From the NCBI GenBank assembly GCA_023264015.1, contig JALQTJ010000002.1:1-64000 (forward strand): DNA of 64,000 bases. The letters run 5' to 3'. The notes beneath the pieces were generated by a model. That model was not told where the DNA came from, did no database searches, and saw only the letters and a program-made list of their open reading frames with translations. The translations under genes were made by a program, and so were the position numbers. Every line of letters starts with the position of its first letter. Position 1 is the first letter of the stretch. The stretch is from Flavobacteriaceae bacterium. Its GTDB lineage: Bacteria > Bacteroidota > Bacteroidia > Flavobacteriales > Flavobacteriaceae. Below are positions 58,115 to 63,922 of the stretch, piece after piece.

Positions 58115-58210
58115 TCCGCTTAAGAGTCTTCGAGAATCAAAGGATGTTTTTTGTTAAATATGTAACAATCATTTGGTTGGCTCGCCTAAAAGAGTAGTTT
58201 TACACCCTCA

Positions 58211-58267
58211 ATGAACACACTACAGCATTTATCGCTTCCGATTCGACGCTTCCGTCGCCGCCCGTAA
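58211..58267 (+). CDS. Arginine leader peptide (candidate attenuator)
   Basis: An 18-residue reading frame, MNTLQHLSLPIRRFRRRP, ends 92 nt before the first gene of the arginine operon. Five of its last seven residues are Arg (CGA CGC, then CGT CGC CGC), in the run pattern of amino-acid attenuator leaders. The Arg codons themselves can form a perfect CGACG-CTTC-CGTCG hairpin (58244-58257), which a ribosome stalled for Arg-tRNA would keep open. It is too short for routine gene callers. Inferred role: ribosome stalling when arginine is low. Confidence 0.7.
   Translation: MNTLQHLSLPIRRFRRRP
58244..58257 (+). promoter_or_regulatory. Hairpin formed by the leader Arg codons
   Basis: CGACG - CTTC - CGTCG, five perfect pairs, lies entirely within the arginine codon block of the leader peptide. 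Confidence 0.5.
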
Positions 58268-58284
58268 GGGTGTGTGCTGTTATT

Positions 58285-58306
58285 GGAAATAGGTGAGTCC
58301 ATTTCC
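58285..58306 (+). promoter_or_regulatory. Stem-loop downstream of the leader peptide
   Basis: GGAAAT-(A)-GG, loop TGAGT, CC-ATTTCC: eight pairs with one bulged A. It lies 18 nt after the leader stop codon and could be the alternative-structure partner in attenuation. It is not followed by a U-tract. Confidence 0.5.
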
Positions 58307-58359: not shown

Positions 58360-58908
58360 ATGGAAATCTGTTTTGCAGATGAGTCGCATCATCGTTATGC
58401 GCAAGAAATCTGCGATACCATTCAAGACGCCGCGCAGAAGCGCGGTACCGGAATCGCCCGACGTACCCCAGAGTATATCGCTACGCGTATGACCAACGGG
58501 AACGCCGTTATTGCCTTAGAAGGCGATCGATTTGCGGGCTTTTGCTACATTGAGCGTTGGGGAGACAAAGACTTTGTAGCGCACTCTGGACTCATTGTGC
58601 ACGAAGACTTCAGAGGACTTGGTTTGGCCAAGGCGATCAAGAAGAAAGTATTAGAGCTTTCGATTCAAAAATATCCCGAGGCTAAAATTTTCGGAATTAC
58701 AACGGGCTCGGCAGTAATGAAGATCAACTATCAGTTGGGCTATAAACCCGTGACGTTTAACGAACTCACTAACGATCCTAAGTTTTGGGACGGATGCCAA
58801 ACCTGTCTGAATTACGACGTACTAACTCGAACGGGCAGAAAGATGTGCCTTTGCACAGGGATGCTTTACGACAATCATTTAAAATCAACCGATCATGAAG
58901 AAGAATAA
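58360..58908 (+). CDS. Arginine-operon GNAT acetyltransferase (probable N-acylglutamate synthase role)
   Basis: A 182-residue GNAT protein with the acyl-CoA loop LIVHEDFRGLGLAKAIKKKV (about residues 76-95) and a C-terminal Cys cluster (CQTCLNY, CLCTG). It is the first gene of the arginine operon and overlaps argG by 14 nt. Because argB, argC, argD and an N-acyl-type argF' follow, it probably makes the N-acetyl- or N-succinyl-glutamate that starts the pathway, as no argA or argJ is visible. This is inferred from context only. Confidence 0.78.
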   Translation: MEICFADESHHRYAQEICDTIQDAAQKRGTGIARRTPEYIATRMTNGNAVIALEGDRFAGFCYIERWGDKDFVAHSGLIVHEDFRGLGLAKAIKKKVLELSIQKYPEAKIFGITTGSAVMKINYQLGYKPVTFNELTNDPKFWDGCQTCLNYDVLTRTGRKMCLCTGMLYDNHLKSTDHEEE

Positions 58909-60088
58909 AATTGTAATCGCTTACAGTGGAGGCCTCGACACCTCTTATTGTGCACACCTTATGGCTTCAAAGCCCGAAAACGAGGTGCATGCGGTGACGG
59001 TAAACACGGGCGGATTCTCAGCCGAAGAGGTTGCCGATATTGAAGAAAAAGCCCTGGCGTTTGGGGTAGACACTTACACCTGCCTGCAGGCTGAAGAAAT
59101 ACTATATAATGACGTCATTCGATACCTGATTTACGGAAATGTGCTTCGCAATAATACCTATCCGCTTTCGGTGAGTGCAGAGCGTGCAACACAGGCCATT
59201 GAGTTGGTCAAATTTGCACAATCGATAGGGGCTAACGCTATTGTGCACGGTTCGACAGGTGCCGGAAACGATCAGGTGAGGTTCGATCTTATGTTTCAGG
59301 TGCTGGCTCCTGAAATTGAGATCATCACTCCGATCAGAGACCAAAAGCTAGCCCGAGAAGAAGAGATCGAATACCTGAAGTCTCACGGTTATGCCTATTC
59401 ATGGGAGAAAGCCAAGTACTCTATCAACAAAGGATTGTGGGGCACCTCGGTAGGTGGTGCTGAGACGCTGACCTCATCAAAAGGACTCCCCGAAGAAGCG
59501 TTTGTTTCTCAGCTTAGTCGCACCGAAAGTCAAGACCTTAGCCTGACCTTCGAAAAGGGAGAGCTTGTAGCCTTGAATGGAAAAAAAGGTTCAGCCGTGG
59601 CATTGATTAAAGAGCTTGAAGCGATCGCATCGGCCTACGCTATCGGAAGAGACATTCACGTCGGAGACACTATTTTAGGCATCAAAGGACGTGTTGGATT
59701 TGAGGCGCCCTCGGCACTCATCATTCTAAAGGCCCACGAGTTATTAGAGAAGCATACGCTCACCAAGTGGCAGCAGTTTCACAAACAGCAACTCGCCCAA
59801 TGGTATGGAATGTTATTGCACGAGGGACAATTGCTCGATCCGTCAATGCGCAATATTGAGGCCTATTTACGTGACAGTCAAGAACAAGTGAGCGGAGAGG
59901 TGTATCTTAAGTTGCATCCGTACCGTTTTGAACTTCAGGGCATTGACTCTCCATACGACCTCATGCAATCGAAGGTGGCTATCTACGGAGAGACCAATGC
60001 CGCCTGGGATGCTAACGATGCAAAAGGATTCATCAAACTGTACGGTATGGGAATCAAGCTTGCACAAAATGTAAAAAGAGATGATTAA
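58895..60088 (+). CDS. argG: Argininosuccinate synthase
   Basis: A 397-residue ATP-dependent ligase joining citrulline and aspartate. The PP-loop IVIAYSGGLDTSYCAHL is at residues 6-22, with the family GSTGAGNDQVRFDLMFQVLAPEIEIITPIRDQ and KAKYSINKGLWGTSVGGAETLTS-like segments. It overlaps the GNAT gene by 14 nt and argC by 8 nt. The product would be cleaved by argH, which is not in the window. Confidence 0.96.
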   Translation: MKKNKIVIAYSGGLDTSYCAHLMASKPENEVHAVTVNTGGFSAEEVADIEEKALAFGVDTYTCLQAEEILYNDVIRYLIYGNVLRNNTYPLSVSAERATQAIELVKFAQSIGANAIVHGSTGAGNDQVRFDLMFQVLAPEIEIITPIRDQKLAREEEIEYLKSHGYAYSWEKAKYSINKGLWGTSVGGAETLTSSKGLPEEAFVSQLSRTESQDLSLTFEKGELVALNGKKGSAVALIKELEAIASAYAIGRDIHVGDTILGIKGRVGFEAPSALIILKAHELLEKHTLTKWQQFHKQQLAQWYGMLLHEGQLLDPSMRNIEAYLRDSQEQVSGEVYLKLHPYRFELQGIDSPYDLMQSKVAIYGETNAAWDANDAKGFIKLYGMGIKLAQNVKRDD

Positions 60089-61064
60089 AGTTGCCGTAAT
60101 TGGAGCCTCTGGATATACTGGAGCAGAACTGCTTCGCCTATTGATTCACCATCCTGAGGTCGAGATACAATCCGCCTATAGTCGCACGAACAGTGGCAAA
60201 AAAATAACAGCGGTTCACACCGATCTACTGGGGCATACTGATTTAGCTTTCAGTAATACGCTTCCATCAGATGCCGATTTGTGGTTTTTGTGTTTGCCGC
60301 ACGGTGAATCTGCCGACTTTCTTACCGCCAATAAGGCCAAGATTAAGAACACGCGTATTATTGACCTCAGCAATTCATTCAGACATATGAACAGCGCTTC
60401 TCATGAAGGGCGCAACTTTGTTTTTGGACTTCCAGAGCTGAACGCTGCTGCCATTCAAAAGGCAGACAACATTGCTAATCCGGGCTGTTTTGCAACAGCC
60501 ATTACCTTAGCTTTGGCACCTTTGTATCACCAGGGGGTCATTACTGCTGAAAATGAAGTGCATGTTAATGCAACCACCGGAAGCACTGGTGCCGGCACCT
60601 CGCTGTCACCCACTTCGCATTTCAGTTACAGAGCCAACAACCTTTCGTGGTACAAGCCCTTTGTTCATCAGCACTTGGCAGAGATAGCTGAACAGCTAAC
60701 AAAGACCCCAGCTGCGACACCTGAAATTCACTTTTTAGCTCAAAGAGGGGCCTTCACGCGCGGGATTTTTGCTACGGCTTACACTAAAACCCATCTCTCT
60801 TTAGAAGAGGCGAAGTCATTGTATAATGCCTTTTATAAAGACGCTGCCTTCACGCATGTCAGTGATCAAGAAATTCACCTTAAATCGGTTGTGGGCACCA
60901 ACAATTGCCAATTGCACCTTCACAAACACAACGATTTGCTTCTAGTGACCTCAATCATAGACAATCTGCTCAAGGGGGCTTCAGGACAAGCCGTCGAAAA
61001 CATGAACCTCATGTACGATTTTAAACAAACCACAGCCCTTGGGCTCAAAGCAACCTATTACTAA
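60081..61064 (+). CDS. argC: N-acetyl-gamma-glutamyl-phosphate reductase
   Basis: A 327-residue NADPH enzyme reducing N-acylglutamyl phosphate to the semialdehyde. It has the N-terminal VAVIGASGYTGAELLRLLIHHP, the catalytic Cys in ANPGCFATAITLAL, and the HTHFLAQRG-like region PEIHFLAQRGAFTRGIF. Start overlaps argG by 8 nt and the stop overlaps proC by 1 nt (TAATG), so the operon is tightly coupled. Confidence 0.95.
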   Translation: MIKVAVIGASGYTGAELLRLLIHHPEVEIQSAYSRTNSGKKITAVHTDLLGHTDLAFSNTLPSDADLWFLCLPHGESADFLTANKAKIKNTRIIDLSNSFRHMNSASHEGRNFVFGLPELNAAAIQKADNIANPGCFATAITLALAPLYHQGVITAENEVHVNATTGSTGAGTSLSPTSHFSYRANNLSWYKPFVHQHLAEIAEQLTKTPAATPEIHFLAQRGAFTRGIFATAYTKTHLSLEEAKSLYNAFYKDAAFTHVSDQEIHLKSVVGTNNCQLHLHKHNDLLLVTSIIDNLLKGASGQAVENMNLMYDFKQTTALGLKATYY

Positions 61065-61855
61065 TGCAATCCATTTCAATCATAGGAGCCGGAAATTTGG
61101 GGCAGAGTATTGCCACAGGACTCCTTCAAAACGGACACCAACTTACCTTGTCTAGGCGCAAAATTTCGGCGCTTTCGGCTTGGGAGACACGAGAAAACGT
61201 AAAGCTCACGACCTCAAATACCGAGGCCATTCAAGGAGCAGAAGTAATCATATTGGCCGTTCAACCGCGCCATCTTCAAGCGGTGCTTCAAGAAATAGCC
61301 CCTCAATTGAATGCGAATCAAGTGGTGGTTTCAACTGCTGCAGGATACGGTATAGAGCGTCTTGAAGAGCTGTTGCCAAAAGGCCAGCCACTGCTGCGTG
61401 CCATGCCGAACACTGCGGTTTCAGTGCAGGCTTCAATGACCACCTTGAGCGCCAACACCGCCGGACGCGATTACCTCGATGATGTCGGCGCCTTATTCGA
61501 CTGCGTAGGACAAACGCTGGTCATTGACGAAGAACAAATGCAGGCAGCCACGGTGCTTTGTGCTAGTGGTATTGCGTTTTGGTTGAGACTGATCCGAGCC
61601 AACACTCAAGGGGGCGTTGAGATGGGATTCGAGTCTGACACCGCCTTGAAAATGGCCACCCAGACGGCTTATGGTGCTGCGCAACTCTTGTTGAGTTCAG
61701 GCCATCACCCTGAGGCTGAAATTGACCGTGTAACTACTCCAAAGGGATGTACCATCACGGGGCTCAACGTCATGGAACACCAAGGGATGAGTTCAGCATT
61801 CATCCAAGGGCTTTCTGCCTCTTTTGAAAAGATTAATGAATTGAAAAAGCAATAA
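61064..61855 (+). CDS. proC: Pyrroline-5-carboxylate reductase
   Basis: A 263-residue NAD(P)H enzyme making proline from pyrroline-5-carboxylate. The Rossmann motif is ISIIGAGNLGQSIATGLL, and the family signature is in KMATQTAYGAAQLLLSSGHHPEAEIDRVTTPKGCTITGLNVME. It sits inside the arginine operon, overlapping argC by 1 nt and 1 nt before argD. Arginine and proline synthesis share glutamate semialdehyde chemistry, so co-regulation makes sense. Confidence 0.93.
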   Translation: MQSISIIGAGNLGQSIATGLLQNGHQLTLSRRKISALSAWETRENVKLTTSNTEAIQGAEVIILAVQPRHLQAVLQEIAPQLNANQVVVSTAAGYGIERLEELLPKGQPLLRAMPNTAVSVQASMTTLSANTAGRDYLDDVGALFDCVGQTLVIDEEQMQAATVLCASGIAFWLRLIRANTQGGVEMGFESDTALKMATQTAYGAAQLLLSSGHHPEAEIDRVTTPKGCTITGLNVMEHQGMSSAFIQGLSASFEKINELKKQ

Positions 61856-61856
61856 T

Positions 61857-62981
61857 ATGAGCTTGTATCCGGTATATGCACAGTACCCCATCAGTATCGT
61901 TGCTGCCAATGGAATAGAGCTGACCGACGACAAAGGTCAAAAATACCTAGACTATTATGGCGGTCACGCGGTGATATCAGTGGGCCATGGCCATCCGCAT
62001 TACAAGGCCGCTTTACACGAGCAGCTAGACAAAATTGGATTCTACTCTAATGTTATTCAAAGCCCTCTGCAAGAACAGTTAAGCGAGCGTATAAACGCGC
62101 ATCTAGAGGCTCCTTATCAGCTTTTTATGTGCAGTACGGGAGCTGAAGCCAATGAAAATGCACTGAAGGTGGCCTCGTTTAAAACGGGAAGAAAAAAGAT
62201 CCTTGCCTTCACACATAGTTTTCACGGGCGCACCTCTGCCGCTGTAGCGGCAACGGATAACCCTAAGATCTGGGCTCCAATCAACACTGGGCATGAGGTT
62301 GATTTTGTAGATTTTGAAGACTTCGAAGAAAGCGAGCGCCTGCTCGCCACCGCTGACTACGCCGCCGTGATCATTGAAACGGTGCAAGGTGTAGGCGGAT
62401 TAGATCAGCCAACGGTAGCATTCACGGCTCACCTTCAGACCTTATGCAAAAAGTACGGCACCATGCTCATTGCTGACGAGGTTCAATCGGGCTTTGGACG
62501 AACAGGGGCCTTTTTCTCCTACCAGCGTTTTGGACTGCGTCCTGACATCATCACTATGGCAAAGGGCATGGGTAACGGATTTCCGGTAGCGGGCATCATG
62601 GTGCATTCAGACATTGAGGCGGTGATGGGCGAGCTAGGCACCACCTTTGGAGGCAACTTCTTGGCCTGCCGTGCTGCACTCGCAGTGATCGATATTCTTG
62701 AAAACGAAAAGCTCATCGAGCACGCTCTTCATCTTGAACAGGTTTTTAGAGCCGCTGTCGAAGAGGCACAGCTCAAGGCGACCATCAAGGGAGCAGGATT
62801 AATGATTGGTCTAGACTATGGAGCGCCCACCGCAGAGCTCAGAAAAAAACTGCTCTTCGAAGAACACCTCTTCGTGGGTTCATCGAGCAATCCTAATGTG
62901 GTACGCATTCTTCCGGCCCTGAACATTGACGAGCAGGCGATTAAACATTTAGTAGCCTGTCTAAAAAAACACAGCATATGA
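61857..62981 (+). CDS. argD: Acetylornithine/succinylornithine aminotransferase
   Basis: A 374-residue class III PLP aminotransferase converting N-acylglutamate semialdehyde to N-acylornithine. The PLP Lys lies in IITMAKGMGNGFPVAGIMV; other motifs are FMCSTGAEANENALKVA, LAFTHSFHGRTSAAVAATD, and LIADEVQSGFGRTGAFF. Its stop overlaps argF' by 4 nt (ATGA). Slightly shorter than typical ArgD. Ornithine aminotransferase (rocD-type) is less likely given the operon. Confidence 0.94.
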   Translation: MSLYPVYAQYPISIVAANGIELTDDKGQKYLDYYGGHAVISVGHGHPHYKAALHEQLDKIGFYSNVIQSPLQEQLSERINAHLEAPYQLFMCSTGAEANENALKVASFKTGRKKILAFTHSFHGRTSAAVAATDNPKIWAPINTGHEVDFVDFEDFEESERLLATADYAAVIIETVQGVGGLDQPTVAFTAHLQTLCKKYGTMLIADEVQSGFGRTGAFFSYQRFGLRPDIITMAKGMGNGFPVAGIMVHSDIEAVMGELGTTFGGNFLACRAALAVIDILENEKLIEHALHLEQVFRAAVEEAQLKATIKGAGLMIGLDYGAPTAELRKKLLFEEHLFVGSSSNPNVVRILPALNIDEQAIKHLVACLKKHSI

Positions 62982-63922
62982 AGCACTTCATTTCGATCAA
63001 AGACTTAGCCGACCCCAAAAAGGCGGTGCAAACCGCACTTGCACTGAAAAAGCAAGGGAGTAATCTTGACCGCTCGATGACAGCAGACAAAGTATTGTGT
63101 TTGCTTTTTTTCAATAACAGTCTTAGAACACGTTTGAGTACTGAGCGCGCAGCCATGTACCTGGGCATGAAGGTCATGGTGATGCAGATTTCTGAAACCG
63201 GATGGGCTTTAGAGTTTGAAGACGGAGTGATCATGAATGCTGATAAGGCAGAGCATGTAAAAGAGGCTGCTGCAGTTGTTTCTCAATATGCCGACGTGAT
63301 CGGAATCAGAGCTTTTCCGACCCTTTCCGATAAAGAGGCCGACCTTGAAGAGCGGGTATTACGGGCATTTGCACGCTACGCCACGGTGCCTGTGTTGAGC
63401 CTTGAGGGGGCTACAGAACATCCGCTTCAGGCTTTGGCAGACGCCATGACCATTGAAGAACATCGCACGGTAAGCCGTCCAAAGGTTGTGTTGAGCTGGG
63501 CTCCGCATGTACGCACACTTCCGCATGCCGTGGCCAACTCATTCGTCCTCATGATGCAGCGTCAAGAGGTAGATTTAGTATTGACCTATCCCAAAGAATA
63601 TGCACTAGATCCTGAGGTGGTTGGCAACTCAAAGGTGACCCACCAGCAAGAAGAAGCATTCGAGGGCGCCGATTTCGTTTATGTCAAAAACTGGAGCAGC
63701 TTCGAGCCTTACGGTCAAACTCCCAAGGTCTCAGATGACTTTACGATTACGGCCGCCAAGTTGCAAGCGGCTAAGTTTATGCACTGTTTGCCAATCCGTC
63801 GCAATGTAGTGGCCGAAGATGCAGTGCTTGACGGCCCCAACTCGCTGGTCATTCAACAAGCCAACAATAGAACATATTCAGCACTATGGGCCATTCGTGA
63901 ACTCTTAACCGCTGCGAAGTAA
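62978..63922 (+). CDS. argF': N-acylornithine carbamoyltransferase (ArgF')
   Basis: A 314-residue transcarbamylase of the N-acetyl- or N-succinyl-ornithine type. Carbamoyl-phosphate residues are in FFNNSLRTRLSTERA (about residues 44-58), followed by GWALEFEDGVIMNADKAEHVKEAAAV, HPLQALADAMTIEEH, and the C-terminal HCLPIRRNVVAEDAVLDGPNSLV. The HPLQALAD and RRNVVAEDAVLD pattern separates it from ordinary ornithine carbamoyltransferase. I cannot decide acetyl against succinyl by eye. It overlaps argD by 4 nt and argB by 1 nt. Confidence 0.92.
   Translation: MKHFISIKDLADPKKAVQTALALKKQGSNLDRSMTADKVLCLLFFNNSLRTRLSTERAAMYLGMKVMVMQISETGWALEFEDGVIMNADKAEHVKEAAAVVSQYADVIGIRAFPTLSDKEADLEERVLRAFARYATVPVLSLEGATEHPLQALADAMTIEEHRTVSRPKVVLSWAPHVRTLPHAVANSFVLMMQRQEVDLVLTYPKEYALDPEVVGNSKVTHQQEEAFEGADFVYVKNWSSFEPYGQTPKVSDDFTITAAKLQAAKFMHCLPIRRNVVAEDAVLDGPNSLVIQQANNRTYSALWAIRELLTAAK

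Follow-up and report, generated by a model that had tools for sequence, protein, structure and literature searches.

The DNA analysed here, called the window below, comprises the first 64,000 nucleotides (nt) of contig JALQTJ010000002.1 from a Flavobacteriaceae bacterium, whose draft assembly consists of 148 contigs (GCA_023264015.1). Toward its end, an operon for arginine synthesis (arg operon) is preceded by a short, Arg-rich open reading frame (ORF), the leader, and by two hairpins, HP1 and HP2. Based on sequence comparison, and with a probability of roughly 60%, we propose that these parts constitute an arginine sensor that acts in cis through the ribosome, governs the arg operon as a whole, replaces the missing repressor ArgR and employs an off-switch that is free of a terminator. 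Put differently, these marine bacteria, which lack ArgR, probably gauge arginine by the ease with which a tiny Arg-rich gene is read. Comparison of homologous loci shows selection on three features that accompany the arg operon: the Arg-rich ORF, the hairpin HP1 surrounding its stop codon, and HP2, set at a fixed distance.

A conserved Arg-rich leader upstream of the arginine operon

The leader ORF MNTLQHLSLPIRRFRRRP (58211..58267, plus strand) begins with the ATG at 58211 and ends with a TAA at 58267. It comprises 18 codons, and five Arg codons are found among its last seven sense codons, in the order CGA CGC (TTC) CGT CGC CGC, followed by Pro and the stop. A distance of 92 nt separates the stop from the start (58360) of the first operon gene, which encodes a GNAT acyltransferase. 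A first-pass annotation, made from the letters of the window, had given the ORF, its Arg run and this distance, and all three proved exact. It had also suggested a near-leaderless promoter, which agrees with the predicted promoter at 58172..58202 (plus strand): a TTTG at 58172-58175, a spacer of 19 nt and the -7 box TAGTTTTA at 58195-58202 put the predicted start a few nt before the ATG. Accordingly, transcription is predicted to begin at the leader ATG or immediately upstream of it. A TAnnTTT[G/A] box is also located a few nt 5' of the first leader ORF in most named homologues, and the flavobacterial -7 consensus is given as TAnnTTTG in PMC9723704.

For comparison, we collected the region 5' of the GNAT homologue at 70 loci from the same genus, family and order, and scanned 84,980 species genomes for the combined HP1 and HP2 motif, which matched at least 119 stretches; 80 loci were among the matches listed. 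The attempt to refute the leader by the lack of a conserved Arg-run frame in relatives failed, since position, frame and Arg codons are kept in 112 distinct leaders. In all of these the codon adjoining Pro is CGC, the codon before it encodes Arg in 95% (CGT in 76 leaders, CGC in 30) and the third codon back from Pro does so in 62%, while additional Arg codons are scattered over positions -4 to -9. In contrast, Arg makes up only 0-12% in the other two frames. Judged by these counts, the Arg frame is far beyond chance. Since the third base varies while the amino acid stays fixed, the leader ORF is under coding selection, and its codon conservation suggests that it is translated. The choice of codons is peculiar as well: CGT or CGC account for 304 of the 319 leader Arg codons (95%), compared with 300 of 1453 (21%) in the downstream ORFs of the same loci, where AGA is the commonest. 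Only the last CGC of the leader is also constrained by HP1; the remaining Arg codons are not.

All 80 listed motif loci are labelled Bacteroidota and nearly all belong to genera of the Flavobacteriaceae. The GNAT gene follows directly 3' of the motif in 77 of them. Two of the others (L150 and L159) are cut by the end of the locus, while at the third (L154) argG, argC and proC stand behind an acyltransferase-like gene other than GNAT. The arg operon was thus found 3' of the motif in 78 of 78 testable loci among the matches listed. Because L154 keeps argG-argC-proC behind a different first gene, the leader travels with the operon and not with GNAT.

Two conserved hairpins

HP1 (58259..58272, plus strand; CGCCC-GUAA-GGGUG) overlaps the last Arg and the Pro codon with its 5' arm and holds the stop codon in its loop. 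Its G-U pair is replaced by G-C at two loci, L034 (CGCCC-CUA-GGGCG) and L044 (ACGCCC-GUU-GGGCGU), and at L028 a different hairpin, GCGCAC-GUUU-GUGCGC, occupies its place with Arg codons in the 5' part.

HP2 (58285..58306, plus strand; GGAAAU-A-GG-UGAGU-CC-AUUUCC) starts 17 nt past the stop codon and carries the tip GGUGNGUCC, which is invariant in nearly all Flavobacteriaceae examined, while the stem changes by compensation. In 37 distinct unedited sequences (alignment A5), 97.3% of the HP2 cells pair, 39 cells are changed on both sides compared with 13.7 in shuffles, and the covariation score of 0.412 (shuffles: 0.153) was reached by 0 of 500 shuffles. The gap between stop and HP2 measures 16-18 nt in 103 of 108 sequences, with a search pattern that admitted about 13-24 nt, and the sequence of this linker is not conserved. 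Beyond the core genera, HP2 takes the form of a plain hairpin whose pentaloops differ (L048, L063, L064). At one locus (L015) its tip has decayed (UAGAUGAGUUGAGUUC) and both leader ORFs are retained.

No Rfam match above the gathering score was found for the HP1/HP2 element. A covariance model, R1, was used for searching only, as it was built on an alignment (A3) in which a bulge base had been deleted by hand in some rows; it gave a single strong HP2 match per genome, always at arg. Three further ideas about HP2 were discarded. It is no general module, as strong matches occur only at arg, and the weaker ones inspected were coding DNA or lacked a leader. Start codons for a third coding frame are present at HP2 in many genera; however, the length of HP2 differs by 1-3 bases between genera, so that frames through it are not kept. 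Pairing of the tip with the 3' end of the 16S rRNA is imperfect, with one bulged base, and was judged likely to be chance.

Output without a terminator, genomes without ArgR

As the first-pass annotation had stated, no U-tract terminator follows the leader: none was found in the window, either by inspection of the sequence or by a terminator scan, nor in the consensus. Behind HP2, many genera show a short pyrimidine-rich stretch and a few a run of U (e.g., L050); in the consensus, a few pyrimidines are followed by an A-rich part, and the stretch is poor in G. Antiterminator pairing among leader, linker, HP1 arm and parts of HP2 did not exceed shuffles in a duplex test on 112 sequences (mean z -0.26 to 0.34). 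Early codons of the leader pair with the linker over a long range in the genus of the window and a few others, but not generally. Long-range pairing between leader and operon was not detected. In contrast, his leaders in these and additional genera (L111-L140, upstream of hisG) contain a run of His codons followed by a GC-rich stem and a T-run and are, by this layout, textbook attenuators. Thus, the lineage builds normal terminators where it uses them. The arg leader accordingly resembles a classical attenuator in what appears to be its sensing part and differs in its output part. The first-pass annotation had called it an attenuator leader; the conserved in-frame Arg-rich ORF ahead of the arg operon stands, while attenuation in the classical sense, with terminator and antiterminator pairing, is not established.

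ArgR (PF01316) was matched in 0 of 148 relatives, with positive controls in Bacteroides and Escherichia coli. Together with the conserved Arg-rich ORF, this backs the earlier suggestion of a leader as an alternative to control by ArgR. Within the class, 8 of 198 genomes possess a clear ArgR, in 5 of them just upstream of the GNAT gene. Among GNAT genomes without ArgR at this place, 42 of 64 carry an Arg-rich leader (11.4 expected from shuffles), whereas among those with ArgR upstream of GNAT 1 of 5 does (1.7 expected). An Arg-rich leader was defined by at least three Arg in the last 14 codons, a criterion set after examples had been seen. Because it is post hoc and kinship is not modelled, these counts describe a trend and not a probability.

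Proposed mechanism and alternative explanations

According to our proposal, the near-leaderless mRNA would be translated at once. If the tRNA-Arg that reads CGU and CGC is poorly charged, the ribosome would stall in the Arg run and hold HP1 open, and the transcript, remaining occupied, would reach the operon. If arginine is plentiful, the ribosome would finish and leave at the stop codon within HP1, upon which both hairpins could fold. The emptied leader would then be lost in the G-poor stretch after HP2, most likely through Rho-dependent termination or RNA decay, and HP2 might serve as recognition or stability element for this step. The off-switch is the weakest link of the proposal.

Several observations weigh against this sensor. 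The case for Rho is built on the missing terminator and the presence of a Rho gene in this genome. The invariant HP2 tip is stricter than a plain stem requires. In one genome (G006), a GNAT-proC duplicate keeps HP2 though its leader ORF has lost the Arg run; since HP2 persists beside such a leader, it may act independently of Arg codons. In this copy (L331, contig 49), the additional GNAT gene is paired with a proC of its own and lies upstream of methionine-type genes; it is preceded by HP2 (position 1369, reverse complement), a variant HP1 and a leader ORF ending in LFCALPNPLGCVNL. Furthermore, 22 of the 64 class genomes without ArgR lack a recognizable leader too, and in family f5 (L065, L067, L069) the GNAT gene of the arg operon has no Arg-rich leader in genomes without ArgR.

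Three alternative explanations turn on HP2. If it were an intrinsic terminator and a stalled ribosome favored an antiterminator, as in trp and his, one could point to HP1, which is laid out like a 1:2 hairpin with control codons in the 5' arm and the stop in the loop, and to the pyrimidines and occasional U-runs behind HP2; yet the missing U-tract, the empty terminator scan, the pairing that stays within shuffles and the regular terminators of the his leaders make a classical attenuator unlikely. A Rho-dependent or RNA-decay switch like that of Salmonella speF/orf34, in which the position of the ribosome (on Arg codons or stop) decides whether the hairpin downstream of the stop forms, appears possible, though we favor it only tentatively. 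Arg codons, stop codon, a hairpin downstream of the stop and the lack of an intrinsic terminator are shared (PMC6386406), the spacing from stop to HP2 is fixed, Rho is present and a G-poor stretch follows. This spacing, however, lets HP2 fold with the ribosome still on the stop, and long-range pairing between leader and operon was not detected. Slightly less likely is that HP2, with HP1, is the site of a trans-acting protein or ligand to which the leader peptide merely tunes access. The invariant tip on a covarying stem and the HP2 retained in G006 without Arg codons would fit, and so would the layout of HP2 (a loop of 5 nt on two pairs, GG/CC, with a bulged A beneath them), which resembles protein-binding hairpins such as the MS2 operator. 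Nevertheless, plain HP2 versions with other pentaloops exist outside the core genera, and we know of no protein or ligand for HP2.

Two further explanations concern the ORF itself. A nascent chain ending in RRP-stop could sense free arginine in the ribosome, much as the arrest peptide TnaC senses tryptophan, and this end is indeed nearly fixed in Flavobacteriaceae. But the Pro and stop codons sit in HP1, which accounts for their fixity, and the strong preference for CGT and CGC points to reading by tRNA rather than to the peptide. In addition, nascent-peptide sensing is improbable because the RRP end is lost at L028 (..RRTFVRA), L044 (..RRPLGVNCMKDR) and L054 (..RRRPGRM) while Arg codons and hairpins stay; outside the Flavobacteriaceae RRP-stop is replaced as well. 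Finally, the ORF might be an untranslated chance product lying over an RNA element of which only the hairpins matter. Overlap with HP1 could fix some of the last codons, but the Arg codons 5' of HP1 are kept in frame with third-base variation, other frames do not retain Arg and the start codon lies just behind the promoter, so that this explanation is very improbable.

Beyond the proposed arginine sensor, a bolder view could be envisioned, which we regard as speculative: HP1-HP2 might represent a new class of cis-regulatory RNA, free of a terminator and read by the ribosome, whose invariant tip recruits a dedicated factor. It would have regulated arginine in the ancestor of Bacteroidia, and ArgR would have taken its place in some lineages, or vice versa.

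Tandem and variant leaders

Many genera possess two Arg-rich leader ORFs in tandem, while the genus of the window has the single form. The first ORF (e.g., MKNLKNKIRCSTPGLPVRNRRRF) has its start codon a few nt from the -7 box. The second starts about 40-50 nt past the stop of the first; its start codon, which may be ATG, GTG or TTG, keeps its position, usually 85-88 nt 5' of HP1, and the ORF ends with RRP-stop inside HP1. At L013, L026, L029, L045 and L202 the upstream Arg-rich ORF is of the type MKNLKNKIR...RNRRR, in tandem with the ORF that ends in HP1, and at such loci a U-rich stretch lies 5' of the weak start codon of the second ORF. To our knowledge, Shine-Dalgarno sequences are not used in the phylum Bacteroidota.

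Variant forms were observed as well. In family f27 (L264-L266, L272, L274), MFLKTKHIANKLPSFTRSNRPSPRPHGGMC exemplifies the leaders, and the hairpin behind them has an HP2-like layout (AGCC-U-CC-pentaloop-GG-..-GGCU). In family f15 (L059-L062), the leader ORF 5' of the GNAT gene is longer and conserved (MKQVNIYTPSERPVLTIGIGRFSPLDRFRREPNRQ), and the hairpin downstream of it is a different one. The tandem leaders, the two conserved hairpins and the spread through the class go beyond the first-pass annotation.

The arginine operon

All genes of the operon are encoded on the plus strand. GNAT (58360..58908) matches Pfam PF00583 and is followed by argG for argininosuccinate synthase (58895..60088, TIGR00032), argC (60081..61064, TIGR01850) and proC (61064..61855, TIGR00112), all three above the cut-off. 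An argD-type aminotransferase gene (61857..62981; best match TIGR00707, under the cut-off) and argF' for N-acyl-ornithine carbamoyltransferase (62978..63922, NF003384 above the cut-off) complete the part within the window. NCBIfam and Pfam thus agree with the gene order assigned earlier, with argD below cut-off. The claimed argB corresponds to an ORF beyond the window edge on the same contig, where visual inspection of the ORFs suggested argB, an ArgE-type deacylase and argH.

Significance and comparison with known systems

The proposed sensor accounts for how a large and abundant group without ArgR could control arginine synthesis. It connects the loss or gain of a repressor protein with whether an RNA/peptide sensor is present or absent at that gene. 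It also offers a defined, testable case of terminator-free leader-peptide control, combined with a conserved RNA motif that is new and with tandem leaders, in a phylum not known to use Shine-Dalgarno sequences.

Control by leader peptides is itself of a known kind. Neither an arginine leader in Bacteroidota, nor HP1/HP2, nor an exchange with ArgR was described in the literature searched, which did not extend to subscription papers and supplements. The closest report within the same bacterial family is on the Flavobacterium psychrophilum transcriptome: it presents 'strong clues' that amino-acid operons in general are preceded by attenuators of the leader-peptide type, and its main text makes no mention of arginine leaders, HP1/HP2 or tandem leaders (PMC9723704). 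The earlier claim of novelty for this group therefore holds for the arginine leader, as far as that main text goes, but not for amino-acid attenuation as such.

Like the his, trp and leu attenuators, the arg leader combines a short ORF and a run of cognate codons before the cognate operon with a stop between the arms of the first hairpin; unlike them, it lacks U-tract terminator and antiterminator pairing and instead has HP2 with its invariant tip. ArgR serves the same operon and signal, but is a protein and absent here; in some Bacteroidia, argR lies directly upstream of the same GNAT gene, in place of the leader. In rbfL of Staphylococcus aureus, Arg codons of a leader peptide sense arginine as well; however, rbfL covers the ribosome-binding site of a biofilm regulator and uses the rare AGA/AGG (PMC13009471), whereas the arg leader uses CGY.

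In its logic, the proposed switch comes closest, among characterized systems, to Salmonella speF/orf34, in which the choice among Rho termination, decay and expression depends on Arg codons, the stop codon and a hairpin downstream of the stop (PMC6386406). This gamma-proteobacterial system has further features of its own, namely the peptide core HIRRT..HIM, a leader of about 500 nt and Arg codons early in the ORF (PMC6386406). The core was not seen in arg leader peptides, which were compared by reading, with no profile search run. Leader Arg codons, a hairpin past the stop, the lack of an intrinsic terminator and arginine as signal are common to both (PMC6386406), while the target of speFL/orf34 is ornithine decarboxylase and not arginine synthesis.
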